The notes below the pieces were generated by a model. It searched no databases, was not told where the DNA came from, and worked only from the letters and a program-made list of their open reading frames with translations. A stretch of DNA of 64,000 nt from positions 434,001-498,000 of the forward strand of contig WFMF01000049.1 in assembly GCA_011033025.1 (NCBI GenBank), written 5' to 3'. The DNA is from Beroe forskalii (lineage: Eukaryota; Ctenophora; Nuda; Beroida; Beroidae). Of this stretch, positions 5,564 to 62,500 are shown in pieces. Position 1 is the stretch's first letter. The number at the start of each line of letters is the position of its first letter. The translations under genes and the position numbers were made by a program.

Positions 5564-8500
5564 GTACATGCCCTATCAGTGTAATGCCCTATCTTTCCTG
5601 TACTGTTGCAAAATTTGGGAGAAATTTCACAGTCTCGGGAATACTGTGTATACTGCTGTTCATTTAGTCACCGGCTTAATCTCACTATTTATATTATTAA
5701 CACTAGTCGGTTCCCGTCCTACGGACGGCGAATGATGGCAGCCGCTAAGCTAACGGCCACATGTCCCTGTGATTTGACCGTGCGAGTTTGGAGGGGAAAT
5801 TCGAAACTTTAATTTCTGCGAAAAAAAGCTTCCCACGCCCCCAACGGTAACCCAATATTGCCGACAATATTCTCAAAACCTTTACTCATCATAAGCAACT
5901 CGATGACGAAGGAATTTTCAATTTTGGAAAAATTCGAAAATCTTTTTTTTTGCGAAAAAAGGGCGTGGCCTCCCACGCCCCTTAGGATGACCCAATAATT
6001 CGGACAAAATTCTCAAAACTTTTGTTCATCATAAGCAACTTGATGGCGAAGGAATTTAAAAAAAAATCGAAAGTTTGATTTTGCGAAAAAAAAGGGCGTG
6101 GCCTCCACGCTCCTCAGAGTGACCCAATAATTCGGACAAAATTCTCAAAATTTTTATTCATCATAAGCAACTCAATGGCGAAGGAATTTGAAAAATTCGA
6201 AAGTTTAATTTTATGAAAAAAGGGCGTGGCCCCCCACGCCCCTCAGGGTGACCCAATAATGCGGACAAAATTCTCAAAATTTTTATTCATCATAAGCAAC
6301 TCGATGGCGAAAAAATTTTGAGAAAATTCGAAAGTTAAATTTTTGCGAAAAAAAGGGCGTGGCCACCCACGCCCCTCAGGGTGACCGCAAAAAAATTCTT
6401 TATTTTTCTGATTTATTATAACTTTCTTACAACACGATTAAAAAATAATTTCGATGCTTACTTGAAAATGAATCGCCACATATAAATAAATAAATAAATA
6501 TATATAAATAAATCCTAAATGTTGTTTCATCCTAAATGTTGTTTCATTTGAGTACTGATGAAATTTAAACTATATAAATAAATAAATATATATATATATA
6601 TAGTTTGGGTGACTATCCTGTCCGAAAACATGAAGTCGTTCTTTAGTTAAAACTAAAGGAGGAAACGTCTGGAGACCGAATCCCGGCATAGCAGAGGCAT
6701 TAAATATATTGGTGAATCATCACGTTCGAAAACATTCTGAAGTCGTTTGACAAAATAAATTGTCGCAAGTCAGTAAGGCATACTAACTACAAACTTAACG
6801 CTTTGGTTGATTCAATGAAGTAGTCAAACTAAAACGAGAAATTGAGTGTACAACTAATTATTACGCAATCGATTTCAAGTCTTCTGTGGACTCTCATCAC
6901 GGCTGGTGGTGGAAGAATTAGCGTACACTGATGTGCACTGTCCTGCTCTTCTATTTATACGACGTTGCAGTGTTGCGTGCTGCCTTGGTAACAAATTTCT
7001 GCACGTGCAGATTTCGATCTGAGTATTGCCGAGTTGTCATCTTTCCGAGCTGGAATCTTGCCGAGCTGGAATCTTGTCGAGCTGGAATCTTGCCGAGCTG
7101 GAATCTTGCCGAGCTGGAATCTTGCCGAGCTGGAATCTTGCCGAGCTGGAATCTTGCCGAGCTGGAATCTTGCCGAGCTGAATTCTCGTCTGTACTCCGG
7201 TCCGAGCTGGAAACTATGTCCTAGCTGGCCTCCTCTGTAATCCGGTCCGAGCTGGAAACTATGTCCTAGCTGGCCTCGTCTTTAATCCGGTCCGAGCTGG
7301 AAACTATGTCCTGGCTGGCCTCGTCTTTAATTCGGTCCGAGCTGAAAACTATGTTCTTGGTGGCCTCCTCTGTAATCCGGTCCGAGCTGGAAACTATGTC
7401 CTTGCTGGCCTCCTCTGTAATCCGGTCCGAGCTGGAATCTATGTCCTAGCTGGCCTCGTCTTTAATTAGGTCCGAGCTGGAAACTATGTCCTAGCTGGCT
7501 TCCTCTGTAATCCGGTCCGAGCTGGAAACTATGTCCTAGCTGGCCTCCTCTGTAATCCGGTCCGAGCTGGAAACTATGTCCTAGCTGGCCTCGTCTTTAA
7601 TTCGGTCCGAGCTGGAAACTATGTCCTTGCTGGCCTCCTCTGTAATCCGGTCCGAGCTGGAAACTATGTCCTTGCTGGCCTCCTCTGTAATCCGGTCCGA
7701 GCTGGAATCTATGTCCTAGCTGGCCTCCTCTTTAATTCGGTCCGAGCTGGAAACTATGTCCTGGTTGGTCTCGTCTGTAATATGGTCCGAGCTGGAATCT
7801 TTGTCCTTGCTGGCCTCGTCTTTAATTCGGTCCGAGCTGGAATCTTTGTCCTGGCTGGCCTCGTCTGTAATTCAATCCGAGCTGGAATCTTTGTCCTAGC
7901 TGGCCTCGTCTTTAATTCGGTCCGAGCTGGGATCTATGTCCTAGCTGCCCTTGTCTGTAATTCGGTCCGAGCTGGACACTTTGTCCTAGCTGGCCTCGTC
8001 TGTATTTCGGTCCGAGCTGGAAACTATGTCCTGGCTGGCCTCGTCTGTAATACGGTCCGAGCTGGAATCTTTGTCCTGGCTGGCCTCGTCTGTAATACGG
8101 TCCGAGCTGGAATCTTTGTCCCGGCTGGCCTCGTCTGTAATTCGGTCCGAGCTGGAATCTTTGTCCTAGCTGGCCTCGTCTTTATTTCGGTCCGAGCTGG
8201 AATCTTTGTCCTGGCTGGCCTCGTCTGTAATCCGGTCCGAGCTGGAATCTTTGTCCTGGCTGGCCTCCCTCACATCCTCAGATAGACAAGAGGGACAATG
8301 ACATCGATAAGTGGGTAAGCAAAATTAGATGGGCCCATTTTTTCAGTAAAGTAACTCCTTCAAGTATTCATAATGCTCACAAAGACACAGAGATTGCCCT
8401 CATTCCTCCATCTGGCAAAGAAGCACCTAAGAGTACTAGTCAGGCTCTGGAGCTTTATCTGCAATTAACAGTCAAGGAGTTGAAATCTACTGGTCTATGC

Positions 8501-11500
8501 AATAATTCCTTTGACAACATGTCACCTAACCACAGACAAGCTCTAAAGCAGTTGCAAAGTTGGGATGATAGTATTTTCAGATATTTTGATAAGGGTACTG
8601 GTTGGGTAATAGATACACCAGAAAACTATGAACAGAAGGTTATGGAGCATCTGGGTGATGCAGACACTTTCACCCCTATCAACGAAGTCCAAGACACCTC
8701 CCCCATTCCAAAAAAGATCAAAGAAATCAATGAGACCATTGAAAAATGGGTGGAAACTTCGTTGAAGGCAGGTGATATCAGTAAACGTCTTGCATCCTGG
8801 ATAGTTAAGGAAGAATCCCGACCAGGTTACGATTATTGTAATTACAAGGTTCACAAACCCCAGGCGAATTACCCTGGGCGTTTAATTACTTCTGGGTGTG
8901 GGTCTCCTACTGAGAACCTAGCAGCTTGGTCAGACTATTATTTGAAACAGTTAGTTGTTGATTTACCTTATGTTTTGATTTACCTTATGTTTTGAAAGAC
9001 TCCTCAGATTTCCTATATCAGATACACAAGTTTAATCTCACGCAGCAGGATAAAATTGATGATATTATTTTGGTCAGTTGGGATGTTGTGGCTATGTTTC
9101 CTAGTATTGACAATGTAATGGGCTTAGATGCCTGTCAGAACTTGTTGGAAAAAAGAGATGTATTGTTCCCAAGCACCACGAGTATTTTAGAAGCAACTAG
9201 AATAACTCTGGAATTAACAATATATCATTCTTCAACAATGTTGCATTTGTTCAGAACAACGGTACTGCTATGGGACCACACAATGCTTGCTCATATGCAG
9301 ACATAGCTATGCACCCTATTGATGAAATAATCAACCATAATGAAGAATACTCGATAGCCTTGTGGTGCAGGTTCAAGGACGACATTTTCTGCCCGTGGAC
9401 CATGGGTTTAGAAAAACTTCACGAATTCCATGCCTGGATAAACTCGCTTCATCCTAAAATTAAATTTACTATGAACTATGCAGAAGACCCATTAACAGGC
9501 GTTGAATATTTAGATACAAGAGTGTATATTAAAAACTCCTTTATTCATACAACTCTTTATACTAAAGTACTAAACCCTCTGACACACATGCATATCTAAA
9601 CCCGAACTCATGTCATCCTAAACATGTGTGTAGCAACATACCTCAGGGTGTTGCTAAAAGAATCAAGCGTATATGTTCTGAGGAGTCTGAATATTATAAA
9701 CACAAACTGACTCACATCAATCATTTTGTAGACAGAGGATATAATAGAGAATTCATTACTACAGAATTTAATAAGTGTGATAATTTAGACCGTCTTGACC
9801 TTATTGGTGACCCCGAAATTAGTTTCAATTTTGAGAGTAAGGAGTGTGGCAGGAGAATTCCTTTGGTTTTGGACTTTCATCCAAGTTATGCTGGTGCTAC
9901 AAGAGCTGTTAATCAACACAAGCACCTGCTTGATTTGGATGATACTCTGAAGGATGTTATTGCCAAGGATAAAATCTTTGTGACTTTCAGAAAGGCCAGA
10001 ACTTTAGGGGATTCTCTTGTTCACTCTCGTTATTCACGTACTGACCCAGATAATGATAGTAAACCTCTAGGTAACATTAATTGTGGAAAATGTAATTTAT
10101 GTAAGTTATTTTTATCAGAGAATTCAGTTAAAGTTCAGTCACTTTCAACCAAACAAGTTTATAACATCAACCAATCTATTTCATATGAGGATGAACATGT
10201 AATTTATGTGATAACTGATTTAGTATGTAGTAAACAGAATGTAGGCAGTACTGATAGCACCATGAAACTTCGTTTTTCCAACCACAAAAGTCATATCAAA
10301 AAGAAAGTTAACAGTTGTAGAGTAGCAGTTCATTTCAACCAGAATAAGGCTCATAAGTTTAGGATAGATAGCCAGGCCCAATACAATGCTACTCTAGCAC
10401 AAGAACTAAAGGTCACCCTGGTAGATAAGGTTAAGCCTGAGCCATGGGATACTCCAGAAAGCATATCTCATAAATTAAGTAAGAAAGAGGCTTATTGGCA
10501 ACACCAACTTAGAACTTTTGAATCAGATGGAGGGCTGAACATACGTAATGAACGCATAATAGCCAATAAGCGTGCACAAGGCAACTGATCCCATGACTTA
10601 AGATAGGCACTAGAGCATTCCCGAACCCCTCCTATCAGTAAAGCCTACATATTGCTTATTACAGATAGTATACTAGGGTTTCCATTATCTACTTGAAATC
10701 TTTTATCTAGATAAATAGATAATTTTTTCGCCATTATCTAGATTATCTAGATAAACTAGATAATTTTTGACTCCGAAATTTATCCAAATTTGACACAATT
10801 TTCAACGTTAGAAATGCACGACTGTTGCAGTGGAACATCATACTATAACCAGCTGTCGGTTATTGAAATGGATGATATTAATGGCCACCAAAAGTTCATG
10901 AGGATATTAGGATTTTGAATAGAGTTCAGGACATTCATTGCTTCATTTTGATTGAGTTGAAATCAGTTATCACCCATAAATTCTCCTATCATAAAGTAAC
11001 AACATTATCTACCAATTAGTTGCTATTAATACTTGCATTATTCATCGGAAAACAGTCAATAAATGTGGAAATAAAGTAAATTTCATGATGATGGCCTCGG
11101 AGTTGCTGGAATGCTGGTAAAATTGAGAATAACTGAATAAAAAATAAGGAATCAAATTCCCTCGTATTAAATCATCATAACAAACCAAAGTTGACAGTTC
11201 CTTGACTCTTGAGCTGAATGCATTAATATTGACAGTTTTGTAGGTTACTTTCAAATAAGCAATAACTTTGCCATAGGTGGAGGCTACTTTCGTACATATT
11301 TACAGCCTACTTTTCGTCAAAGGGCGTCAATAATTTGACATAAATTGGAAGCAGAATAGCGAGTGTTACGAGTAGGTATTCAACTTTCGTTAAAGTGGCA
11401 AATGACGATTTGTAAGATGTGATAAGATACTTTGGACAACGCCTCCTAATTCTGTAGCTATTCATATCAGTTTAACAAAGGTCAAATCATCAGTAAAACA

Positions 11501-35500: not shown

Positions 35501-38500
35501 ACACACTACACTATACAAAATACACAATATACACTGCACACTATACACTAGTACACAATACACACAGTATACACTATACATTATACAATACACCTCCCAC
35601 TTCCCAGATCGAGGAGGAGTACTTGTCGCTGATGGAGCACAGCCGGACGGTGGACGACGAGAAGAAGGAGTTGGAGGACCAGCTGAGAACTATCGAGGTG
35701 AACTTCGTGCGGCAGAACGAGGAAAACAACACTCTCATCGCCATGACCGCCAAAGAGAAGTACACACCTTTACCTTTTAGTCAAGTTTCTTATCTAATCT
35801 TCTTATCTTTATTTGTTGGCGAACCAGGTCTTTGAGTCACACAGGCAGACTACCCTTGAGTTGAGCCACCATGCTTTATTAATTTGTTTTTCCTCCTGAG
35901 TTTGTTCCAGCGTCAAAACATCTGAATCTTTGGAGGAACTCTGGGAGGTCCATGTTTTTTTGTTGAATTCATCTCAACCGCATTTAAGTGAAGCTGTGCT
36001 AGATAAGTGGCTGGTTCTTGGAAGTTTTTTCCGGCAAAACTTCGGATCACTGACCTTATATCGAAATCAGACATAGACATTAGACACCAGACAGGTTTTT
36101 TCCGCTATTCCAAGGAAAATCTCCGTGATTATATATATTAGTAGCTTAATTACATAATAGTAATTACTAATTATGTACCTGATCATCCAATGGTTTCTGG
36201 TATCACTCACGGAATCTGCATGTTGCTCTCCGTTCGTTTGAACCGTAAATCTGAAGTAAAAGTTAGTGGCGTCAACCGGCTGGACTCTTCTGCTAATTCA
36301 CGAGAAGTTTTCAGCTTGAATTTTCCAATAATAATATACTTTTTCTTTAAAACCATGCTGTTTCATAGTTATGCACTGATTAAGAAGAATATTTTAAAGA
36401 AAATAGCGGCCTCTAACAACCAGTCACCAGTGCAAAGTTGTCTAGTACATTTTTTTCTCGATTGTACAGTTTTTGAAAAGATTTCAATTAAGGTCTGAAT
36501 TTTCCACCGGTTCTCATATCTCTCGAGTTGTCACTACTTTTCCATCGTTTGTTCCGTAGCACTAGGGTTTGTTCTATAAAGTGATATCTCAAAAATCGTA
36601 AAAACCTAGGAAAAATTCTCCAATTGAGGACTGATTTTCGATAAAAGATCATTTTGTTACTGCTCTAGTGTTTTGATTACCGATTTATCAAGTGCAAGGT
36701 TTCTCGATGCTTCTAAAATGACTTTTTTACGTGATAAGTGACCTTTGAGTTTGACATGAGATATAACAATTTTACAGAATCTTTTTGACATTTCTAAGTA
36801 CCTAGTATCCTGACATCATATCATTCCTGACATGACAAGACCAGTATTTTGACATGGTATACCTTACCTGACATTGCCATCGTTTTCCTGACATAGTATA
36901 CCTTACTCATTATCTAGTATTTTGACATGGTTTCCTGACATTGTATGCCTGACGTACCCTGTATGCTGACATTGTTTTCCTGACATGACATACCCAGTAT
37001 CAGGCAGGACGTTGAAGTTGAGCTGGATAAGTTACAGAACACTGTTTATCGGAGTGAGGAGATCATATCAGCTGTTCTACCCTCCTCCTTCCCTGCCGAA
37101 GTGGCGAAACCTAGACCGGTTTGTATTCTAATTACCTCTAAGCTTACAGTCCATTCCACCTTTTACTGGGATATTCAACGTTTTGCAACTTTGATTAAGA
37201 ATGAAAATTTCCCAAAGGAGAAGTAATTGATCTTAACTCAATACTTCTATTTATCAAATGCAATTATTATATAGAAAAGTAGAAACTACACTACAAGTAA
37301 GCTGGTGTCCCAGGACATAACCAGGGCACTGAGTGTGGGGGACGGTGACATCAGTCAGATCAGTCAAAGGAGCAATGACACTGTCAACTACACGCGACTT
37401 TCTGAGGAGCGTGACCCCTCTCTACCCGAATCAGCAAGGTTCCTAGCGGGCATCTACAAAACTACAACTGAGCAGGTTAGTCAATTACTGAATCTGCAAG
37501 GTTCCTAGCGGGCATATACAAAACTACGACTGAACAGGTTAGTCACTACCCGAATCAGCGAGGTTCCTAGCGGGCATCTACAAAACTACAACTGAACGTG
37601 TTAGTCAATTCCTGAATCTACAGGGTTCCTAGCGGGCATCTACAAAAATGCAGCTGAACTGGTTAGTCACTACCCGAATCTGAAAGGTTCCTAGCAGGCA
37701 TCTACAAAAATGCAGCTGAACTGGTTAGTCGCTGCCTGAATCTGCAAGGTTCCTAGCAGGTATCTTCAAAACTACGACTGAACAGGTTAGTCAATTCCTA
37801 AATCAGCAGGGTTCCTAGCGGGCATCTACAAAACTACGACTGAGCAGGTTAGTCACTGATTCGAATCAGCGAGGTTCTTAGCGGGCATCTACAAAACTAC
37901 GACTGAACAGGTTAGTTACTGCCTGAATCAGCGAGGTTCCTAGCAGGCATCTACAAAACTACAATTGAACAGGTTAGTCACTGCCTGAATCAGCGAGGTT
38001 CCTAGCATCTACAAAACTACAACTGAACAGGTGAGTCACTGCTTTAATCTGCAAGGTTCCTAGCGGGCATCTACAAAACTACAACTGAGCAGGTTAGTTG
38101 ATTCCCGAATCTGCAAGGTTCCTAGCGGGTATCTACAAAACTACAACTGAGCAGGTTAGTCAATTCCTAAATCAGCAGGGTTCCTAGCGGGCATCTACAA
38201 AACTACGACTGAGCAGGTTAGTCACTACCCGAATCAGCGAGGTTCTTAGCGGGCATCTACAAAACTACGACTGAACAGGTTAGTTACTGCCTGAATCAGC
38301 GAGGTTCCTAGCAGGCATCTACAAAACTACAATTGAACAGGTTAGTCACTGCCTGAATCAGCGAGGTTCCTAGCGGGCATCTACAAAACTACAACTGAAC
38401 AGGTGAGTCACTGCTTTAATCTGCAAGGTTCCTAGCGGGCATCTACAAAACTACAACTGAGCAGGTTAGTCAATTCCCGAATCTGCAAGGTTCCTAGCGG

Positions 38501-41500
38501 GCATCTACAAAACTACAACAGAGTAGGTTAGTCACTGCCTGAATCAGCGAGGTTCCTAGCGGGCATCTACAAAACTACAACTGAACAGGTTTGTCACTGC
38601 CTGAATCTGCAAGGTTCCTAGCGGGCATCTACAAAACTACAACTGAACAGGTTAGTCAATTCCTAAATCTGCAAGGTTCCTAGCGGGCATCTACAAAACT
38701 ACAACTGAACAGGTGAGTCACTGCTTTAATCTGCAAGGTTCCTAGCGGGCATCTACAAAACTACAACTGAGCAGGTTAGTTGATTCCCGAATCTGCAAGG
38801 TTCCTAGCGGGTATCTACAAAACTACAACTGAGCAGGTTAGTCAATTCCTAAATCAGCAGGGTTCTAGCGGGCATCTACAAAACTACGACTGAGCAGGTT
38901 AGTCACTACCCGAATCAGCGAGGTTCTTAGCGGGCATCTACAAAACTACGACTGAACAGGTTAGTTACTGCCTGAATCAGCGAGGTTCCTAGCAGGCATC
39001 TACAAAACTACAATTGAACAGGTTAGTCACTGCCTGAATCAGCGAGGTTCCTAGCGGGCATCTACAAAACTACAACTGAACAGGTGAGTCACTGCTTTAA
39101 TCTGCAAGGTTCCTAGCGGGCATCTACAAAACTACAACTGAGCAGGTTAGTCAATTCCCGAATCTGCAAGGTTCCTAGCGGGCATCTACAAAACTACAAC
39201 AGAGTAGGTTAGTCACTGCCTGAATCAGCGAGGTTCCTAGCATCATCTACAAAACTACAACTGAACAGGTTTGTCACTGCCTGAATCTGCAAGGTTCCTA
39301 GCGGGCATCTACAAAACTACAACTGAACAGGTTAGTCAATTCCTAAATCTGTTAGGTTCCTAGCGGGCATCTACAAAACTACAACTGAACAGGTTAGTCA
39401 ATTCCTGAATCTGCAAGCTTCCAAGCAGGCATCTACAAAACTACAACTACACAGGTTTGTTCGATGAAAACCAGTTAAAACGAGATGCGCTTCAGGTTGG
39501 TTTCACCAAAACTTCTTACAGAAGATGCTAATTTTAGGTACTGGATATCTTCAAATTACCGGGTAAGGGATATAGATTATAGGTAGTTCTTAATATTCCT
39601 TACCAACTAGATACTGGAAAGAAATGGCAACAGGAACTGACGAAAATTATTGCTAGCCATCACCGATCTGTTGTTATATCGTATGGTTGTTGCCAGGCAA
39701 TGAAACGATACAATTATTCTTCGCTACATAACTTACCTAAGTTCACGAATTTACCCCTCATTACCCAGACATAGGAACTTTATCGTGCCTGATCCTATAT
39801 CAATGAAGCAGTTATCGTGCCATCGTAGACATGAGATACGGAATCGAAATGATTCTTAGAAACTCGGAAACCCATGTTTCGTTGCACGTGCACATGTTTA
39901 ACTGCCTAATTAGTTTATCAAACGTTTTGTATCCAGATATTACAATGCTCTGATATATGCAACGTTTCAAACATATTCTGATCGCAGATACAAATTACCT
40001 AGATACCTGCTTAAATAGGTAGTGGACATGTTTGCAATATCATCATGACACAAGTCTACCCTAGCTGGTTTGGTGACATCAAGAAATGAGAATCATTCTG
40101 AAACCAATATCGCTTTCGTAAAAATGGCGTGCGCGTGGCAATTTCAGAATCTTCCTCAGATAGCGCGACAACAACTGAGTAAATTTATGTTATATCATCT
40201 GACAGGTCCAGGAGCTTCACGGGGCGCTGGAAAGTAAGACCGGACAACTTACTACCCTCGTCTCAACGAACAATGCGCTCAACAAAAAGCTCTCAACCAC
40301 CGAGTAAGATATGTATTTACATAAAATTCACACTTTTACGGTAATGTTTGTAATACCACTCACTCCCTGAATTGGACTGCATCCCCCGGCACTGCACCTC
40401 CTTCCCCTCCTCCTCCTTGGAAATATTGAAATACCGAGATACCTTCCCCCTTTCATTAGTGAAATAGGGATGCTCCTTCAATAGTGAAAAAGGGATGCTC
40501 CTTCAATAGTGAAATAGGGATGCTCCTTCAATAGTGAAATTGGGATGCTCCTTCAATTGTGAAATAGGGATGCTCCTCCAAAAGTGAAATAGGGATGCTC
40601 CTTCAATAGTGAAATAGGGATGCTCTTTCCCCCTTTAGAAGTTTAGAAGGGGAAATAGGGATGCTCGGAGCGTTCTCGAAACTCGCGCTACGTCACGCTT
40701 CACCCTGAAGACCGCGTAGTAAACCTCCTCGATTCCTCGAATCTACGCATTGTAAGATCTACTGCACAAAACTCGAGGCGGAAGTTAGAGCACAGAGTTT
40801 GCTTTGCCGTCAATCGAGCTCCAAAGTTTACAAAATTAGCAGACGTAAGGACTCGCACGATGTAATAAATTATGCAAGTAAGTTATAAATTGTCGGAAAC
40901 TTTTGATTTGTGCTCGATCACGAGGAAGGATGGTAATAGCGCCGCACAGAGAAAGGGAGAGCACGCACATACGAAGATTTGGATAAGCGGTCTCCTACCA
41001 AAGATAGACAGCACTTTCCTCCGCCTGCCCTGGGAGAAGGAGGAGGTTTAATATAAAGCTCTCTTTGCTTACCTGTCCGCCGCTACCGTGTCGTGGCACG
41101 GCGCATCTCTTAGTTCGCTTTTAATTTTCACCTCGGGGTCCTGTCGCTGAAACTGTTCTTCTAAAGCTCTGGACAGTTTATATTATCATCTAAACGCTCA
41201 CTGAAGCTCGCGTCATCTGTTGCCCTTCGTCAGCTACAGTCAACAACCGGAGCAGTTTAGACTCTATAAGCGCGAATAATGGTGCGCGAAGAAAGGTACG
41301 TAAGCCGTAGGGTGCGTCGTTTTTCAATTTTAAGCCATTTTTAAGCCGATTCTCAATGTTTCGTATCGGTTTTAGTCCGTGTTTCGAAACAAAGTTTGCG
41401 CCTTCGTTCGCAATAGATAAACTGTAACTCTTGGTGGATAAATTCCAAGGAATTCCATTCTCTTAAGTCGTAGAGATGGCACTTCAGTGTTAAATGCACG

Positions 41501-44500
41501 AATCAATGGAAGATCCTGATGTCCTGAGTATCCCACTGTCCAACTTTGGCATGCTGCGGGTCTAATACAGGTTTTAGGCCGGTCCATGCCCGCATGAACA
41601 AAGAAAACAAGCACACTCTAGAGTGAGTGAGGGTTGAGAAAGACAGCTAAGAAGAATGATAGATCTGTGTTATCTTTCGGAAGGAGACGATGGCTAAATC
41701 CGAGACTTAGATTATGAGCTGTGACGTCACTGCGTCAGATCACCACCAGCAAAACATGTCACTGTATCAAATCATTCAGTGACTAACCAAGTTATTCATT
41801 CCTGCAACCTTAAGACTCAAATCTGGGTCATTTAACTTCGACATTGTCTCAAGGTATGATAAGTGAACAAGATCAAGAGAGATGCTAGAAAATAGAAATT
41901 GACAACTCGGTGTTCTAGTAGGGGATACTTAAATTGGCTACAATGACAAATACCACATATAAACGTGTCGCTTAACTCAAACACATCACGAGTTCACGAA
42001 TCCTCCCCATCACGTATGACGTTGACTTAAGACTCATCTCCTTCTGTCGCACTATAATATCCGAAGCAGAATTGTTGTTTTTATCATGTGTCCCGTCTTT
42101 TGAAATCATCCCAAATACGCTTCAGCTGGGCACTGAGCTCACGGTCACTTCAGTTCCGTAGAATCTAGCTCGTATGACGAGAATATTGGTACTTACGCGT
42201 TTAAATGGCTGGCATAAGAATGTATTAATTCTTCTTATTCCAAGCTGCATAAACATAAAATTTTATGGTAATCGTCGTAACTCATGGCCGAAGAACGCAT
42301 CATGAGTGGTCATGGTTGCTATGATTCTCCGTTCTAAGTAAACTTTCCATGGTCACGAAGCTAACATCATTCAAAGTTCAATGCGTAATGCCATCTTTTC
42401 ATACTATCATTATAAGAAATTTTCCATCTTACCTTTTCTCATAACTTGCACTTGACCATGATCAATGTCAAGATTCAGTCAATTTGGTCATGTAGGAAAC
42501 GGCTGGTTACCATTTTCACTAAGCCCAGCAACGTTTTTTCTGTTGCCGTTCCGCTTTCGGTTCGCCAAAAGATACAAGTTTACTGTTTTCCGGCTACAGT
42601 CTGTTTTTTCGAATGAAATATTTCAGGTTTGTTTTCGGCGTGAGCCAAAACATACTTATTTATCGGAAAACCGGTCGTTTTTCATGTCCCTGTGGCACGT
42701 AATGCCGTTGATTACCAACCATCTATGTCAAGCCTTTCCCCGATTTTCATGAAACTAAATTGGACTTCTTCCAATTTTACTTTCCTGGTCATCGATCGTG
42801 GATACTTCCGTGTTCAACTTCACGTCTAAAAATGACCTCGTTGAAGCATATCGGTCGGTTCATGGAAGTAGAGTTAAAAGAACGTCACTCATACCTGCCC
42901 TGTCGTTGTTGCTCGAGTGCGCTTCTTTGGAAATGTTTAGTATAAATCTCTATTATCTAATTATCGTTTAAGCAATAAACGAAGTAAATCCTTTTCTCTT
43001 CATCGTTCTTATGGATTTGAAGAAAAAAGTAATAAATTGTGGTGTTTGTCCGTGCTATTTAACAGCGCTTTGCTGAATAAACCCGTAGTTTGAGTTACCA
43101 CTTTAGATGTTCTTCTAAATCATGCATCCTTCTCACACTATGAATCCTACTTCCTTCTAACGTTTTCCCATTTATTGTTCTCGAGTTCTCGGAATTGCGC
43201 CTACTTCTATCGTTTTGAATTAATGCAGTGGCAAGCAGTCACGTGAGTGCTATATTTCCGACGAATGCCGTGCCTGGCGCTCAACTACCCGCTCCCTACC
43301 AACTTTAACTCTGTCGTGCGTGGTACAGCAGGTCATTTATTTGGATTTTTAATCGAACTATTAGTACCTCATGACCAGTTACCGTGGAATTGATCGTCAA
43401 GTAAACGGCTTTTATTATTTTCTCAAACAAAATGAGTAATTATGATGGAAGGGGAGCAGGTTTGAGCGGCATTTTTCATTAAAATAAAGGCATTTTCTAA
43501 GTCATTTATTAAGTAGGCTGCCTCGAATAATATGTGGTAGGAAGTGGCCTCGTTATCATGAATTGAAGTAGGGGTTTAAAGTTGAACGCCTATTTTTGGC
43601 GCAGTTCTGCTGGTTTATTGTCATGACTATTAAATGATTTCCTATTATGAGTGGCAGTGATCCCTCCAACTCTGGCAGCGTGTCTTGGCTCCTCCTGAGT
43701 CTCCTCTCACTGCTGCACCACTTGACAGGATGTGCGTGATAAGAAGACCCTCGCCACAACCTCCCACTTCCTGCACGTACTGCCGCTCATTGATCACAGC
43801 GTCCTATCTGCACTTTACCACACAATTATATCCTCTGCAGTGTGCTTTATATGTTAGCTCCAGAGAGAGAATAAGAGAGGGAGATGTTGGGATGATCGGC
43901 CATCATAATCACTGGCAATACTTGAGTTTTACTGCTCTCTTATTAAAGTCTCACTCCCTATTGCAGATGTTTTGGGTCTTCGATACTTGAATCAGACTTA
44001 ATGCACATGAAGTTTTTGTTTCATTTTGTTATTGCAGATTATGCCTGTCTTCGAGAATCAAATTTTTGCGGGCTTTTCCATTGGATTCTCTTTCGCCGAA
44101 CTTCATAATGACGATGAAGCACGCGAGTTTTTACCCTGTTTCATTCTGCGTGCATCTCCCAAGACTCCCTGAACACTCGACAAAAGAACTGTGTCCTTTT
44201 CTCCGATGAATCTAGGCTATTCTCCTGCGTGGACAAAACCTTTAAACTTTTAAAGCTCATCGAAGCTTTTCCACGAAAAAGGAACTATCTGTTCGTCATA
44301 CCAAGAAGGGAAGGACTTGATGCCATCATCTTTCATGATGGGTAACTATTCCAATGCCATCTGATATCATGTCATGAGTCTGTTATAATGAGTTGTTCGG
44401 TACCGTGATGCCTCCCTCCATTAGGACAAACAATGCGGTTACAAGTGGTGCAATGGTCCTTCGAATGCTCCAGCTATACTCGGCTCCGCCTATCTTTTCT

Positions 44501-47500
44501 ACGCTCCCTTAAAAAGAGACTCTGTCTCAATAGCAGCCGTTTCCGAGTGACGGTGTTGGGAGTGTTTAACACGACAAACTGATGACGCCAATGCCGCCTC
44601 GTTGCCGTGCAACCCTCTCGTATCCGATGATAGTTCCAACTTCTATATCCTGGACATGTCACGTGACAGCATAAATTTGTCATGCCTACCCGGCATATAT
44701 CAGTTTGTAAAACACGGTAATATCATAAGCTGCATATGTATTTCAAACTACTAGTCACTTAAAGCATTATCCGCCGCGAAAGATCATTATGCAATCACCG
44801 TTTTCCGGTGAACTTTTTACCTTTTTCAAGGTTACTTTGAGAATGTTTCCTAATTGCTGCATCCTTGTGCTGTAGCATCTCAGACTTAGAACCCAACCAT
44901 TTCCACTTCTGTTTCCTTTTCGTGGACGGTAGTATTACGGCAGAATTGATTAACTTTTTTCACGTTGATTTTTGGTAATTTTCCTGGTTGGTTTTTAAAC
45001 ACTTTTCACCCAAAAAAGTCGTACGATTGAATGGTTTCCTACTAAGGAGTTGTCGATCAGTCACGTGAGTCAGTGATTTGTTTATAAACATTTTTTAATA
45101 AAACTGTTTATGCAACTTATGTACGAGTGGCAATATAGGCAAAACGGGGTATTTATTTCCCATATTCTGAGTTTTAACTTTCCCTGCTTGAATCAGTCCG
45201 AGTTTTTTGGTGTCATAAAGTGATAACATAGAAAAAAATAGATAGCCCGTAATGAACAGGTTTAGTTTACAGCTTTTATTATACTTTTGATAACTATTTA
45301 TGACAGGAGTCAGTAAAAATAAAATCCATGACGTGCTCGAAGGGTAGATCATCTGAAAAATAATTCTAGTTTGACTTGTTTTGCTTTATGGCCTTATGGG
45401 GACTCCCAGGATAAAATCACCTTTTCTACAAAGTCATTAAGTATAATCTCTATCTTTACACCTTCACACTGCACATTTAATAAGCGGTTACATGTCGAAG
45501 TGGTATCCGAATACCGCAACATACATGTCGAGGCGAAGCCGAGACTGTGTTCGTTGGATAATGGACTCGGCGTGCCGAGTTCATGTTCATTGTATCCTTA
45601 TCAAAGGTATACGGTCATAAGCTGAGATCTGGTTTCACTCATGATACCATCTCCTCCTCAGGGCTGAACTGAAAGAACTGAAGTCGAAGATGTCCGACGT
45701 GGAGTCCGTTAATGAGAAGGTAATTAAACGCGATTATCTTAGCAACTCGGTATTTTATCAGCTAATATACTGACAAAATACATATATCTTTTTATTCAAA
45801 ATCACAAATAGGATACACAACAAATTATACATTGTCACTTGCCCTATATAAAATGATTCTTGAAACATGACTTGAGCTGTCAATTAACTGATGTATGATT
45901 GTGTGCAGCTACAAGACGCGAACAGGACGATTGCGCGGCTGAAGGGTGAGATCCTGAAGTTGAGCACGGAGGCTCAGAACGCGCAAAATGCGGGGAACAC
46001 TATGGACGATGCCATGATAGAGGAGAACGAGGAGCTCAAAACCAAGGTATCAGCTGGAGAATGAACTTTAATAAACCAAGGTATTAGTTGGGGGATGAAG
46101 TCAAAACCAAGGTATCAGCTATTCAGCTGGGGGGATTTAAATTAAAAACAAGGTATCAGCTGGGGGATGATTGATGAAGTATCAGTTGCAGTATTAGAAT
46201 GATAACTTGGTGAATAATGTATGTGGTAGAAAGTGGCCTCGTTATCATGAATTGAAGTAGGGGTTCAACTTTGGGCGCCTATTTTTGCGCAGTTCTACTG
46301 GTTTATTGTCATGACGTTTTCATCGATGATACATAGACAAGTGTGGGCATGAATTAAGTGGCGTTTGGGGTGAATTTTAAGTTGATAAGACGGCTGATAA
46401 TTAACTATCTTTTTAAATTTTCAGATAGAAAAGTTGGAAGAGATAAAAGCAGCCCTGCTAGGTGATATACAGAGTCTACAGGAACAACTGGAAGAGGTAT
46501 GTTTTATAAAAGGATGCTCCATCATTTTCATTATAGAGTTAACACTTATCTCATTCGGGTTGCTCCTTATGAAACGTACGACATTTTCATCCGTTCACTG
46601 ATAAGCAACACTATAGATCTCTAAAATAGTTTTCAGCATCACGTGATAACTTAATCACGTGATACCCGTGTGAACAGGCCCTAGATGAGATAGATGAGTT
46701 GAACGAGAAGTTAGAAAAAGCAACGACAGCCTCCGTGCCCATTCCTTCCACCCCTTCCGAGCACAGCGAATCAGTGCTGGAGGTGAAGCGCATGCTCGAG
46801 GAGGTCATTGACCAGAAAACGCAAGTTATCGAGCAAAAGTCCCTCGAAATCGAGGAGATGAAGGAGGTTTTGGAGCAGAAATCCCGCGAAATAACGGACC
46901 TAGAGGGGAAAGTAAGCGAGCTGGAAAAAACGGTCGAGCAACTGACTGATAACTTGTCGAAAGCAAACCGCAAGATATCAGAATCAGAGCTAATGATCAA
47001 GCAGCGGGACTCGGTGATTGGCGAGAGAGATAGCGAGCTAAATCAGCTGAAGAAACGGAAGACTATATCAGACCTGAAGCTGATGGTGGCTCCCATGAAG
47101 GTTCCCATGTCTCCTGTGTACTGTGCTAATTGTGGTGCCTATTCTACCCTCTGAGCAGGACAAGGATCGTGTGCCAGCTAACTTCCTGCTAACCGTCGTT
47201 ATGTATGTCGTAACTTAACGCATGTTATTATGTCGTGGCTACTTCCGCTGATTCACGGTAGTTGCCGTTAATTATTCCTCGGTGTGTTTCATCTGGTTTA
47301 GTTGTCAAGGGAAGTCAAATGTCGTTAGGAATAGTTCCTTCATTGGTCATTCAATGTCAGAGTTTATGGGTAATTCCTGGCTGAATTATTGAATATCCAA
47401 AGAAACCCTTTAAACGACAAATAGCAAAATCTGTAAACTTTGTCTGATCTTTTGGTATGTTTTTTAACTTTTAAAAAACCATTGAGTTTTCCCAAATGGG

Positions 47501-50500
47501 CATCCATGTTCAATAAAATTTATCTTTGGGAGAATTCACTCTCCTGACACTGCCGTATAAACGCCCAGGACTGTGAAGCAATCGCCTGAAGACTTCATTT
47601 AGGACTTGATAAGTTAATAATTGTTGTTTTAATAGATTTCTGAAAACTGGATTCAGGAAATATGGAGTGGGCGCTTGCCGTTTGCCAAAATTTTGATTTA
47701 TTGATTCGTTGAAATAAATACAGCTAAAATCACTTCCTCGTTGGTCTAAATTCTGCCGTTTAAGCTCTGTCTGAGCATCTAATCAGAGCTGATTATCATA
47801 TAAAAGTCACATGCCCGTTCGGCGGCAGCGTTTGAAAATAGGATTGCCGCTTGCGTGTCTACATCTGATCTCATGCCCGGCTGGATGTCGACGGCTTTGC
47901 TCGAATAAGGCTATGACGAAGCAATAACGTCCTTCACCCTTCCTAATAATGTAATAGCCCTCCCTATTTTGGGTATTTTACCCTGTTTATATCGTTAGCG
48001 ATAATTTCCCACCAGTTCCAGTGTTTTGATTGTAGTAAGTGAACAGTTCAGTTGAAGTTCAGAGTTACAGATCATTGTTAAATGGGTTAAGCTGGAAAAA
48101 TCATTCCATATGTTTAGTGGTTACTAATTACAGAGTTACATATTTCATGGATGATACGCGGTATACCCTTTTGCCAAATAAAGGTTTATGAAGAGGTTTA
48201 TAATCAATCTCTTCGGTTTTTAATAGGCATTACTTTTAGAAGGGGTTATCAGAACCAATCTAACATTTTACCCACCATTTCAAAGGAAGGCATAGTGCCT
48301 AAAGCCCAATGCCCTCGCACCTTATTGGCACTTATTCTAAACGATCAAATAACTTTTCAATTGATCAAATAACGAAGATGAAGTACAAACTAAAAGCAGT
48401 TCTCATTATAGGAATATCGCTAGCTCCTCTTGAAATATTTGAGTCTTGAGTTTTCATATGTTTCAGTGAACTGATAACAATAGCATCAAGTGGCTATAAA
48501 CTGTATCTTTGGATTTCATCTGTGGAAAGGAGGAAAAGTATAAGGATTCATTCCAGAATTAATTTCCAATTACACGTTCCGTTTCAGGAGAAAGACATAA
48601 ACGACAAAGCATCTAAGGAAATGAGGGAAGCCAATGGCATCATCGAAGAACTCCGTGCTCAACAAGGTGATATTCTCTTCTTCAATTTGAACTATTATCT
48701 TCGTGTGGTAGAAGATGTCATTTCCGATGAATTTTCCACATTACCCTCTTCTAACGCATTGAAGACCATCTAGACTAACAACTTGTGTGAACCTAAGTTG
48801 TCGTTCTGAAAAACAAATTCAGCTAACAAATTCAAATCACTCTATAATAATTATCCTCACACAACTCCCTCTCCCCAGCAAAGCTGGAGTGTGACTGGCT
48901 AGAGTCGGAGAACAAGAACACCTCCCTGGAAGAGAAAGTGCAGGAGCTGGAGTCCCAAGTGGCGGACTTACTGGATCAAATTAAACGTGAGTACTCGAGA
49001 AGTGCTCCTGTGTGCTGTGTGTACTGTGTGTTTCTGGGGTCATTACCACTGTACTGCCGACTTTATAACTTGTGTTCTGTGAAGCCGCTACCACACAGTA
49101 CCAGTCTACTTACCTCCTTAATTCCCTCCCTTCTTCCCTCCTTCTTCCTCCCTCCTTCCTCTCTCCTTCCTTCCTCCTTCCTCCCTTCTTCCTCCCTACT
49201 TCCTCCCTAAAACCCTACCACTGCCCTGGACGGAGCGCTCTGCTGACCACCACTATACGGACCAGTCCACGAGAAGAGAGAATTAACCAGGCTGTACTTT
49301 AATGCTGTGTATAGGAGCGGTAATAGTCTACGTTACAGTCTGCATAATTCCCTGCAGTGTACTTCTCACAGTCTGCGCAGAATCCTCTCTATCTCTCTTT
49401 AAGATATTTTACCTTCTCTTTCCTCCGCATACATCCCAGCTATACAAGTTGTATATACTACCATCCAACTATTGTATATATCATGGTTACTTGTGATGTT
49501 TACTGTATTAACTGCTCCGTCTTCGTCTGCAAGTGCCTCAAGGCCGTACCTCGATACGCCGATCATGAAGACTGTAATCAGGTGGAGGGTAAGTATACTA
49601 TAGGTTGTTGTCTGTACTGCCTATTATTTAGTTGAAATACCTTGGACATTTCATGCTCTGAATGTTGTTATTGTATACTGAATAGATTGCTGCAACCAAT
49701 ACACACGCAGTCTTTACTCCCGGATCTGTCTTTAGTTTGCCTCTACTGTTTATTAGCTTTACATTGTTTCGATCAGGATTCAGGTGTCAAAGTCTAATGA
49801 TATCATTAAAAGAATCGGGGCTTTCCGAGGTCAATTTCCGGTTATCGTTCTTTCTGAACGTGGAGAAAGTCACATTTTTCAGTAGCTTTTTTACTACATA
49901 AAAAGTAAATCGAGAAAGATGCGAGTTTTAAAGTCCTTGATTTCCTTGTAATTGCAATGCGCGTTGGTGCGCGCGGACTTCTAACGCGTTTGCCTAGAAT
50001 TTATAATTGAAATCTGTTTATAATTTTCGACATAGGCTGGGCCTGAACTTGTTAGTTATATGTTCTAAGTTTCAATCGAGCCGGGAGCCGAGTGACACAT
50101 ATTAATTTTTAAAGTGAACTTGCCCGTGGCCAAATATCATCACAAAATGGTGATTTATAATTTAATCGAAAGCCGGCTCTGTCAGAAAATCGACCTCGGA
50201 CCCCCAACCCCTTATTAAATGAGTTTGAGCTAAATGGTTTGAGTATTATTCTTTAGATAGTACATTTTATCAAAATTAAGCTCTGTAATTTGCAAACTTC
50301 CGCAATACGGCGGAAGTTCGAACGATTCGAACCCCTGTCTTTTCGAACTTCCGTCATGTTTGGCGACGGAAACTTCAAACCTTCCCCCTCCTTCCTGAAA
50401 TGTTAAGCATCTAACACTCCATCGTCAGATGAGAAGGAAGTTACAAAGGAGCTGCTGGAACAGGCTGAAAACGAGTCTTCCTCCCTAACTACCAGAACTA

Positions 50501-53500
50501 GGTTTGGTTTCCTAAATTTGATTACTCACTGGGCCGTTGTGCTCCATTTATTAAACATCCATTGTAACATTGACTACTTCTCCTGCAAAGTTGACCCAAA
50601 AAGATCGTTATTCTAAATCTTTGCAAAGCGTCTTACCCTCAACACTCCAATGGAGTGGCTCAATATTTGTATCGATTCTCGTTATTAACTACTTTCTACC
50701 CTTTCGTGCTGCGTCAATATCATTCGCAATATCTGAGTTCTAATTTCTTAACATATCTTTCGCCCCTCCTTCTACCTCACCTCTCCTCATCCCCATACTC
50801 CTCTGCCCCTTGCCCCTCTTTTTACCCCTCTCATCTTTACCCCCCCCCCTGCTCCTTGCCCCCCCCCTCTTTGACCCTCCACCCCTCACTCTCTGTCCCA
50901 CCCCAGGAGGGAAATGCAGGAGTTACAGAGCACCTCCAATGACTTGAAGCAGTGTGTTGATGACCTCCGCTCCGAACTCAAGCTCAAGGACTCGAAGATA
51001 GAGGAGCTCACTGACGATAACGCGGCTCTTCAGAGGAAACTCGGCAAACTCCAACCCTCCCTTGAGTCCTATGAGGAGGTAAGAATGGTAGATTATGGTG
51101 AGGTTATAGTAAGGGCTATAAATAGTAAATTGATGATGCATTTCCGTCTACTTTAATGTGAGCAACTCGGAATAGTCACTACTTCTCTACTACTAGTATT
51201 CTTATATTCGAAGGTATTTTGTAATATCCCAGAAATACGTGTTTTTGTCAAGGGCAGATCTTGCTCATGCTATGGTGGCTTAGTAGCCTACTTAGTACTT
51301 ATTAAAACTTTAATATAAAATCGTGATAAATGGCGGTAAATCGTGATAAATGGCGATACTCGTGATAAAAGAATGGATATAAGGAAGTTCGTGGAGTCGG
51401 TCTCTGGATCCAAGGCACTGGTTGTCACAATATTACCACATGATATTGTAAGATTCCGAAGAAATGTTTACTGCGTATTTAGCATGTTGTGAAATGACAA
51501 TGAGGAAGCCACTATCTCGTGAGTCCTAGGACCGGATGGTTTAAGTTCGCCGTACCAAGCGAATCCTCTTCATTTTCTTGTATCGTGCTAGACGTTGTTG
51601 TCTCCGTCGCTTATTGTAACAGTGTCACCACCCAGCGATCTATTGTTATATTGCAAGGGAAGGTGAGCTAATTTCAAGATTATATTGGTGGGTATTTATT
51701 AATGGAGTATCTGTAAGTATAACTATGAAGTATGAAGTTACTTCCACCAAAGTCTGTTCACATGAAGTGACAAGTTAGTAAGAAGGTGTTGCCGTATTGG
51801 TCTGTATAACATTGCTGTTAAACCCTACCTCAAGCATTGCCCTTGCCCCTTCTCAACTGTTAGGCAAAATTCAAAAAGAAAATAATTGGCAAGGTGTAAG
51901 CCTCAGACATATCATGATACTACTGTGACCTTTACAGTTATAATCTTTGATCCCAAATAAGGAGATTATGAGATTGCTAAATATCGCAAAGAAATTCGCT
52001 GTAATGACTGCTAGCATACCATTTTGACAAACTTAATGCTCTAATGCTCCATTATAAATAAACATACACGTGAAACTGTGATAGGTAGCCAAAACTTTGA
52101 TCGCACTCAGTGATAATTCGTGTCCTAATGATAAAGCTGAGCTCGGTATTCTTATTTTCCCAAATATGCTCCAGTTAATATTTTCTGATGGACGAATAAA
52201 TTTACCATCATTATGATAATGTGATGACTTTATATCATAATGGCTCGTGCTGTGGTTTTTATGAATTGCATATTAAAATGCTCATCATCTCAAAACATCC
52301 TAAAGAGCGTCGCCATGACAACACTTTCTGTCAATAATAATCGTAAATTGTGTGGTTGTCATTCGATACAGTATGTTTTTGTTTGATGTTCATCAGATGT
52401 TCTGGAGATCAGCACATCAGTAATCTCATAGTATTGTGATTCATTACGTTTGGCCTTATTTTGTTACCTGTTGCTCTTCTCTGAAACCGCTCATCAGATG
52501 ACCTTGTCCTCCCATTACCCCTAGTAAGCTAGTAGTACATAATACCCAGTAAAATGCTGACTGCTGATGGCACTACGAATAACCTGGCCTATCTGACCTT
52601 CTCCACCTCTACTCAGTACTCCTCCTCGGTCTATTACTTCCCCAACACCTGCCACCTGCACCTGGTAGGATTACCACTTCTCTACAGTCATTTATCAAGT
52701 GATGTCTCATAGTGATTTCTCTATTGATGCCTCTGTTGATGTCTCTATTGATTTCTCCATTGACGTCTCTAGTGATGTCTATATTGATGTCTCTTTTGAT
52801 TTATCTAGTGATGTCTCATAAAGATGTCTCATTGTCTCATAATGATGTCTCTAGTGATTTCTCTATTGATGCCTCTATTCCCTAGTGATAATGACTGTGA
52901 AGTCATTATCCGGGGAGTCCCTCGGTACACTGAGACACTGCCCAGTAGCCTCAGGGCTGGGGGACTGCCCGGACCTCTCGCAGATCTGTCCTTCATTTAG
53001 TAGTCGTCATTACCACGCTACACAGTGGTGGATAGATCACGCTATCTCGTCTCTCCCTCGTGCTTACATATCCCTCTCCTTCCTCGTATATATCTCACAC
53101 CAGATCTTAGAAATGTCAGTGAAGTTGTGATGTGCCGCGCGTACTCGCGTTATTATACCTACTCCTTCGTCCTAATAGGTCGGCGTGAATATTCCTTTTG
53201 TCCTCCTATATCCTCCTCCTCCTATATCCTCCTCCACGCTCATATCTATCTTGTCAGTGTTGTGTGTGTTTTAGATATGATATTATGATATTTAGCCTCG
53301 TATCATTCTTTTGTTTGGTCAAGTCAATAGCTCTCCCTCTTCTCATCAGTCTTCTCTTCTTCCGATATCCTCGGTATTTCCTTCTCCTTCATCCCCACTT
53401 TTATTCTCTGCCTTCTTCTCCTTTACGCATCGTTTCCTGGTTTACCAGCTCCCGTGTTCAAGGAATAGACGTGAAGACGTCTAAACGTTTCTCTTCCTTT

Positions 53501-59500: not shown

Positions 59501-62500
59501 AATAGAACGCAAATTACTACTTAATAAGTACAGCCTCAAAATTCCTTGGAAAACTTTACGGAAGATTTAGATTTTGCTTGCCTCCAATCAAACATCATTT
59601 TACCTGAAATTACAATTTAGTGTATTTTTGTTGTTTTTGTTCAATGAAATCCGAGCAGGCTTGCCAAAAATACGGGTATTTATAGGCAGCTAAAAATTGT
59701 TTTACCTATGATCTCGAGTTCTCTATTAGCCTTTGTATTTTCAACTCTTAGTTACTGACGTTCACCGTACTAAGAAAAAAGGGAGAACAACGTTCTCTTT
59801 TAACGTTTTCCACTTGTAGCCTATTGGTATGGGCTATTGTTTATAGCTCACGTACTTTACTTTAAGTTGTTCAGCAGCCTTTGTAGCCTGTACCTATATT
59901 TGTTGATGTTGTATTGGTTGAATTAAATGCCTTCTTCTGAGAACCCTGAATTAGAACCCCTTGATATCGCTTTAAGTCCTCAAATCATATATAAAGAGGT
60001 GAGAATTTGAGAAAATCTGATCACAGTTCATACTTCCAAAAAGGTAAAAAACCTAGCACAAGTTCATTGATTTCGAAATTTTATGTCTCTTCCTTTATCC
60101 CTCAAAAAATACTGAATGATTGAATGAATTGAACAAAACCAACTACCCTCAAATCCCGCCTTCACTCTAATCACACCTTCCCTCAAATCACACCTTCACT
60201 CAAATCACACCTTAACTCAAATCACACCTTTACTCACAATGCAACTCATTACCAGGCGGTTGTAAGCAAGTATGACGTGGGATCCAGCTGTACGCTCCTT
60301 GACAGCAACACGGACCCGGAACTCCAACAGAACTACGACAAGCTCCAGGCCCAGCTCAACCAGCTGACCTCAGAGCTGGAAACCCAGAAACAAAGCCGAA
60401 CCCAGCTCGAGAACCAGGTCCAACAGTTCAGGGAGCAGAAAATAAGCAACGATAGCGTGAGTAGTCATCACTAAGGTTGTCAAAAGCTGTTAACTGTTCA
60501 ATTGGTGATCACAAACTCACTCTGGGTCATTCCTATCTTACACCCCTCCTCAGTTGACCAATTCCCTCCACAGATACCAATTCCCTCTTCCTCAGTTGAC
60601 GCTGAAGCACGACCAGGAGCACGCTGCAGCTCTTGACAAGCTCCGTTCCACCTTCTCTCAAGAAAGGGAGGACGAGCTCGCCAAGAGACGCAGTGACTAC
60701 GAGGCGGAACGAGCTAAGCGCGAGGACTGCTACCGTCAGGAGCTAAAAACGAAGGAAGCGGAGTGGAATCTGGCGCTGGAGAACGAGAAGGCGGCCTACA
60801 AACGGGCTCTGGAGAAGAAGGAGTCTGAGATAAAGCGGGTGGTGGAGAAGAAGGAGACGGAACACAAGCGCCAGATGGAGAAATTAGTGTCTGATATGGA
60901 GGAAAAACGGGAGCAGGTGAGGGAGGGGGATGGAGAAACTAGAGTCTGATATGGAGGAAAAACGGGAGCAGGTGAGGGGAGAGGGATGGAGAAACTAGTG
61001 CCTGATATGGAGGAGAAACGGGAGCAGGTGAGGGGAGGGGATGGAGAAACTAGTGTCTGATATGGAGGAGAAACGGGAGCAGGTGAGGGGAGGGGGATGG
61101 AGATTGGAGAAACTAGTGTCTGATATGGAGGAAAAACGGGAGCAGGTGAGGGGAGGGGGATGGAGAAACTAGTGTCTGATATGGAGGAAAAACGGGAGCA
61201 GGTGAGGGGAGGGGGATGGAGAAACTAGAGTCTGATATGGAGGAGAAACGGGAGCAGGTGAGGGGAGGGGGATGGAGAAACTAGTGTCTGATATGGAGGA
61301 AAAACGGGAGCAGGTCAGGGGGAGGGGGAGGGTGAAACTAGTGTCTGATATGGAGGAAAAACGGGAGCAGGTGAGGGGAGGGGGATGGAGAAACTAGTGT
61401 CTGATATGGAGGAAAAACGGGAGCAGGTGAGGGGAGAGGGATGGAGAAACTAGTGTCTGATATGGAGGAAAAACGGGAGCAGGTCAGGGGGAGGGGATGG
61501 AGAAACTAGTGTCTGATATGGAGGAAAAACGGGAGCAGGTGAGGGGAGGGGATTGTGTTGTAGAGAAGTGCAGGTTTTACTCTCATTGAAACAACCTCAC
61601 ATTTGAACGTAGTATCATGTTATCCGCTACAAGACAGGGTTCTTCATCCCTTTCCAGCCCCTCGTGCCGATTAACAGAGCTCTGATAACCCGCAGGACTA
61701 CGTGATGATAACCCAGAGAGCCGGAATGGAGCCGGAAAGCCTGACCTCCTCCAACACCATGCTACCAGGGTCCAGTCAGCTATCCGACCGGATAGAGGCC
61801 CTCCACAACCAAGCTATTGAGATCAGGAACTTAGCTCTGGCCTTCTACGAGTCAGGACACCCGCCAACTAAAGAGGTAAATTGTAGTCGTCACGCTCCTG
61901 TTTGCATTTATTATAGTGAGTAACTTATTGATAGCTAGTGGCAATTGAGTGAATGAGTGATATCTTATTGAGTAGCTATGAAGTTTCATTACTAGGAACT
62001 CTCACGAAATTGTTGTCTGCTGGATGATTCATGATTCGTTATTTGACCCTTCGTCGTTGGGGTTATTCACACCTCCTCATATTATGGGCTAACTCCGGTC
62101 TATTTCCACGTCATGCTTGTGGTAGGATCTGTTACTTGGAAATCTGTCAATAATGAGTGATGGCGTGTGGTAGGTATTTATAATGGCTGATGCTATGAAG
62201 TGGTTATCTGGGCTCCACATACCTCTAAAGTAGTAGTAGTTGTAGACCATACACACTCGAGCACTGCTTAGTGTCTGCAGACACCTCCTTATCTAGTACA
62301 CACGCTCGCCAGGTCTTACGTTTTCCTCATGGGATACAAATTCAGTGCACTTAGTCCCACCATGGGATTTTGATATTGTGATCTTCTCTACTCTTCTTAT
62401 TTCAATTATCTTCTCTACTACTCTTCTTATTTCAATTTACAGTTTTGCTTTTAAAGTCAATTATAACGTAGTACCAAGATAGTTTGGTTCAAATGACCCT

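Follow-up and report, generated by a model that had tools for sequence, protein, structure and literature searches.

Does the intron between exons 23 and 24 of a pericentrin-like gene of the ctenophore Beroe forskalii hold an alternative first exon with a promoter and a start codon of its own, as a preliminary description of this DNA proposed? The window, that is, the whole stretch analysed, comprises 64,000 nucleotides, positions 434001-498000 of contig WFMF01000049.1 (C569). By its sequence, the host gene looks like one pericentrin/AKAP450 relative. A PACT domain (PF10495, E 7.6e-13, 49.1 bits vs. the cut-off of 25), the only one found in the genome, is encoded on the + strand at C569:500426-500773 (window-equivalent 66426-66773), 2.4 kb beyond the window end, and on the gene model this domain and the exons of the window would belong to one gene. 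The model is home-made, trained on window exons with generic splice matrices; it contains many coiled-coil-like exons on the + strand, several tiny exons being doubtful. Its start near -4151 looks repeat-derived and is a doubtful first exon for the host gene. In the whole-contig run the model reads exon 23 into a TAA at 40305 and ends, restarts at 45690, and is interrupted a second time, at a tandem array, between 60949 and 61272. A search of the genome contigs for relatives of one downstream exon confirmed none.

Two S-x-I-P motifs, KSGIPAP and HSEIPAK, which we take to be end-binding (microtubule-tip-binding) motifs, are seen at 17.0-18.2 kb, upstream of exon 24; KSGIPAP is split by a predicted exon junction whose splice sites score weakly (0.24 and 1.02). 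The looser pattern [ST]x[IL]P occurs in two upstream exons and one downstream exon, in the latter as T-M-L-P at 61678-61875.

The candidate exon and the host exons on both sides of it have the following coordinates.

40206..40303, + strand: host exon 23 (VQELHGALESKTGQLTTLVSTNNALNKKLSTTE), donor at 40304, phase 2, score 1.08
41267..41269, + strand: in-frame TAA, 12 nt 5' of the candidate ATG, read from the letters
41279..41295, + strand: candidate first coding end ATGGTGCGCGAAGAAAG, translated as MVREE(R), exit in phase 2
41296..41304, + strand: splice donor GTACGTAAG, score 3.87
45662..45719, + strand: host exon 24 (AELKELKSKMSDVESVNEK), entered in phase 2, acceptor score 3.65

The candidate ATG at 41279 has A at -3 and G at +4 and is followed after 17 bases by the donor at 41296, exactly as described earlier. 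The donor word is unique in the window, both strands counted, and outscores 34 of the 40 predicted host-gene donors on a generic donor matrix. The phase-2 exit, also claimed earlier, is confirmed by joining 41279-41295 to exon 24 at 45662, phase 2 to phase 2, which yields the peptide MVREERAELKEL; the joined frame, MVREERAELKELKSKMSDVESVNEK, is open on through the next exons joined. Phase-2 entry of exon 24 compares with phase 0 for 30 and phase 1 for 10 of the 40 acceptor-entered exons at 15-67.5 kb in what is a crude model. The ATG-free run is present, but it is longer than the approximately 200 bases reported, the previous ATG being 349 nt upstream; gaps this long account for 11 of the 1126 ATG gaps in the window. 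The region around the exon is single-copy, itself being the sole match in a DNA search of the 216-Mb genome, and a mobile element was rejected on this result.

Due to the TAA at 41267, the frame of 41279 is barred from use as a read-through internal coding exon. A coding cassette entered via the best upstream acceptors (exon start at 41234 or 41240, scores 2.0 and 1.2, respectively) was rejected, as it would exit in phase 1 after exon 23; for an internal coding exon through either acceptor, the same TAA also blocks the ATG frame. A non-coding upstream exon may be spliced to 41234 or 41240.

We also scanned for similar sites, defined as an ATG with a purine at -3 and G at +4, preceded by an ATG-free run and followed within 80 nt, and ahead of any in-frame stop, by a donor; the thresholds were chosen after the site had been seen, hence, the scan provides support and no clean test. 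With the ATG-free run of at least 200 nt and the donor score of at least 3.0, the candidate is the sole forward match on the 134-kb contig, the reverse strand yielding none; elsewhere in the same genome (66 other loci, 199,200 bases, both strands, overlaps left in) there are two matches, L027 and L028. Lowering the run to at least 150 nt adds one match elsewhere (L034, minus strand) and two on the reverse strand of the contig. Forty order-2 Markov shuffles gave on average 0.25 matches per 134 kb at the run of at least 200 nt and 0.05 at that of at least 300 nt, phase not being demanded, and 0 if phase 2 and TATA were demanded as well. The joint occurrence of the ATG-free run, the start context, and the donor is unusual.

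L027 and L028 are, judging from the frame, the apparent start codons of a Ras-family gene pair. Similar to the candidate, they have long ATG-free leaders (282-284 nt), CpG observed/expected (o/e) ratios barely above 1 (1.04 and 1.07 at -300..+100), and no strong pair of TATA and initiator; they differ in that the short first coding exon is only putative, the scan donors being predicted and their use in splicing likewise putative, and in that a paralogous pair represents one case.

The promoter itself was proposed from two features, a CpG-rich island and a TATA-like word.

40690..41309, no strand assigned: CpG-rich, TpG/CpA-poor single-copy stretch, CpG o/e 1.25, GC 0.47
41051..41058, + strand: ATATAAAG, TATA-like, without an initiator where the putative tubulin promoters have theirs

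A classical CpG island has GC content of at least 0.5 and CpG o/e of at least 0.6. At 40665-41310, CpG o/e is indeed high (1.31, vs. 0.76 in the whole window) and exceeds 0.6, though GC content, 0.477 (0.412 in the whole window), is below 0.5; hence, this is no classical island, and CpG o/e as high is seen in 5.2% of all 646-nt windows, repeats counted. A non-repeat 620-nt window from 42601, in the same intron, has CpG o/e of 1.38. Germline methylation would make CpG and TpG/CpA anticorrelated, and in 805 non-repeat windows of the contig the correlation of their o/e ratios is -0.66. Among these windows, its own overlapping ones counted, the candidate stretch falls among the lowest 0.5% in TpG/CpA and the top 3.9% in CpG. 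This signature fits some unmethylated element, without pointing specifically to a promoter. Start regions of 28 genes of the Ras and proteasome families, with many paralogues and many ATG exons that are maybe not the first ones, show no pooled CpG peak, and CpG o/e at five tubulin starts ranges from 0.47 to 1.11; thus, CpG richness is no general promoter mark in this genome.

The TATA-like word does exist at 41051; a TATA-driven promoter, however, is unsupported, as there is no properly spaced initiator and the pair scores at the chance level. Of random 380-nt windows, 29% of those from the contig and 33% of others from the same genome contain TATAWA; the word is observed upstream of 14 of the 28 Ras- and proteasome-family starts, vs. 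about 30% of random windows. The TATA of the candidate alone is not more than chance.

Alpha-tubulin genes of the same genome served for comparison. Several of them have an acceptor immediately before the second codon, and an upstream ATG directly followed by GT was accepted as the putative first exon in five of eight loci (L066-L069 and L073, the loci used). Of ten tubulin stretches at the outset, L071 and L072 were omitted, as no alpha-type start was found; L070, L074, and L075 were unused, no ATG followed by GT being accepted there (the donors of such sites at L070 and L074 score up to 1.2 and 2.7, respectively). The five putative promoters have a TATA-like word with a TCA initiator 28-30 bp downstream, leaders of 56-67 nt, and ATG-free runs of 84-133 nt; the TATA and initiator words were picked by eye, and the resulting matrix is small and self-fitted. 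Like the candidate, these genes apparently begin with a very short coding exon and a donor after it; unlike it, they combine TATA with TCA at the regular spacing and have short leaders, the candidate having neither. On this matrix, TATAAAG at 41052 has a good TATA score of 5.90 with the best initiator nearby scoring -1.28, and no YCA-type initiator is found 28-30 bp downstream of it, the spacing derived from tubulins. Scores of the TATA and initiator pair are 7.19 for the candidate region, 10.6-12.5 for tubulins, and 5.83 and 8.23 for L027 and L028; random windows do as well as or better than the best pair in 40979-41278 in 31% of 600 cases on the forward strand and in 32% of 600 on the reverse strand. 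A bacterial promoter scan was also run, and is uninformative for a eukaryote. As a separate observation, the regular TATA-TCA spacing at L066-L069 and L073 is a possible core-promoter ruler for the B. forskalii genome.

The rest of the intron was searched for genes and repeats, two further features being as follows.

40864..40869, + strand: AATAAA, a possible, weak polyadenylation signal, with 42 copies on the + strand of the window
45478..45629, + strand: dispersed repeat copy with at least 51 other matches in the genome, ending 32 nt before exon 24

On its + strand, the intron yields no segment with a coding score above 6, a level at which small exons could be overlooked, given that exon 24 itself reaches 7.4. 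In the exon-bearing region 45600-51200, ten listed segments score 6.9-35.7, at least two of them in a wrong frame. The minus strand of the intron has three weak coding segments (9.6, 6.6, and 6.2). Pfam gave no match on the + strand and one sub-threshold match on the minus strand (PF18706, E 0.003); the tRNA search and Rfam at gathering scores found none. A nested gene in the intron was rejected, as all + strand segments are at 6 or below, the minus strand ones are weak, and the minus strand Pfam match is sub-threshold. The dispersed repeat has inserted shortly before the acceptor of exon 24, and an element of approximately 95 bp occurs twice, at 43531-43627 in the intron 41296-45661 and at 46220-46315 in the intron after 46046, the copies being 91-94% alike.

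Our preferred reading, tentative and at a little less than an even chance, is that intron 23 of the pericentrin/AKAP450-like gene harbors an alternative first exon together with a promoter, probably a TATA-less one. Transcripts would begin within the unmethylated-looking stretch 40690-41310; translation would start at the ATG 41279, and 17 coding bases would be spliced to exon 24. The predicted product, very roughly 1,200 residues long (the sum of model exons), would be truncated at the N-terminus: the S-x-I-P motifs and the first half would be missing, the later coiled coils would remain, and so would the PACT centrosome-targeting domain, provided that the exon chain is continuous. Feeding of exon 24 by such an exon is supported by the splice frame, by the donor, and by the + strand of the intron, where no coding partner is detectable (very small exons could be missed); the split of the gene finder at exon 23 and the break in the model on the way to PACT reduce its weight and raise that of a separate gene. 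The exon logic is good, the promoter logic weak; promoter activity, splicing, continuity of the chain to PACT, and function we infer from the sequence. The preliminary description had the short isoform without the SxIP region and with only the later coiled coil: the former holds for S-x-I-P, a loose T-M-L-P remaining, while the latter is probably wrong, because the downstream exons appear to continue to PACT, and on the model the short form probably keeps this domain.

It is rather unlikely, though a reading to be taken seriously, that an ATG and a donor coincide by chance within a unique intron, in a CpG-rich part that is otherwise ordinary, with no start there. The frequency of TATA words (about 30% of windows), the missing initiator for the one at the candidate, the lack of promoter specificity of CpG richness in this genome, and the 0.05-0.25 comparable sites per 134 kb in shuffles, before phase, favor such a coincidence, as does the gene finder, which ignored the candidate exon in both runs, though any ATG was allowed (the run from 40600 started at 45891); at the stricter thresholds, however, the only comparable sites in 199 kb are two apparent gene starts, the reverse strand of the contig has none, and the candidate phase fits exon 24. 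Two adjacent genes, the first ending at the TAA 40305 and a separate, probably PACT-bearing one starting from 41279 or nearby, seem quite improbable. Exon 23 does run directly into TAA, its donor is merely moderate (1.08), AATAAA follows at 40864, and the gene finder itself split after exon 23; however, a phase-2 GTAAG donor always reads TAA, exon 24 accepts exactly phase 2, AATAAA is common in the window, and PMC3198765 and PMC4541494 describe mammalian pericentrin as a single gene that gives rise to long and short forms. An unmethylated regulatory element that lacks the candidate coding exon, such as an enhancer or the promoter of an antisense or non-coding RNA, would leave the ATG with its context, the donor, and the phase unexplained; on the minus strand, the donors of the two first-exon-like sites listed for 38.5-42.5 kb are weak (1.1 and 1.4). 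Low TpG/CpA with high CpG, where the two are anticorrelated, and no core-promoter match on the sense strand agree with such an element, which we consider quite improbable.

The closest known parallel to the alternative first exon is mammalian Pcnt S, described in passages of PMC8397033, PMC4541494, and PMC7349303 as an N-terminally truncated pericentrin isoform that keeps PACT, is called a splice isoform, and is known to be expressed in muscle and heart; these passages mention no Pcnt promoter. The predicted short form would share with Pcnt S the family, the N-terminal truncation, and, if its exon chain reaches PACT, this domain; they differ in that Pcnt S is termed a splice form, whereas the candidate depends on a putative promoter. 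The word "promoter" is absent from the main text of PMC8397033 and PMC3198765, and among the matches listed no title or beginning of an abstract mentions an internal promoter of pericentrin or AKAP9. For ADGRB1/BAI1, PMC11711277 reports an alternative promoter in intron 17 that yields new isoforms; like the putative one here, this is an intronic promoter giving new isoforms of a large protein, while the gene is unrelated and transcript variants are reported there, the candidate being known from its letters.

Whether a TATA-less promoter in the single PACT gene produces a short form that resembles Pcnt S, with PACT but not the end-binding S-x-I-P part, is doubtful, if possible. If it does, switching of pericentrin between full-length and N-truncated forms is old, or arose more than once. 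The sole pericentrin-type gene found would then have a second product, which could reach the centrosome without microtubule-tip-binding motifs; it could compete with the long form or re-site it, as has been proposed for Pcnt S in cardiomyocytes, and would offer a simple route to a non-centrosomal microtubule-organising centre.

Several repeats and duplications were seen in and near the window. The array at 60874-61551 consists of about 12 tandem copies of a 56-bp unit with an apparent exon end (MEKLVSDMEEKREQ) and a GTGAGG donor, that is, a string of duplicated exon-end/donor units at the break of the gene model. A 62-bp tandem array of about 33 copies occupies 37428-39457, upstream of exon 23. 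ORFs at 8231-10588 resemble, judging by eye, a Penelope-like retroelement; three of them had no Pfam match at 0.001. Upstream of the window, a host-gene-like exon (LGLTEAEYTEIIRYVVGEYEEVECARN) is present twice, at L003 and L004 (window-equivalent -11496 and -1136), and the stretch upstream of each copy is also doubled (-17812 and -4028), which suggests a local duplication.
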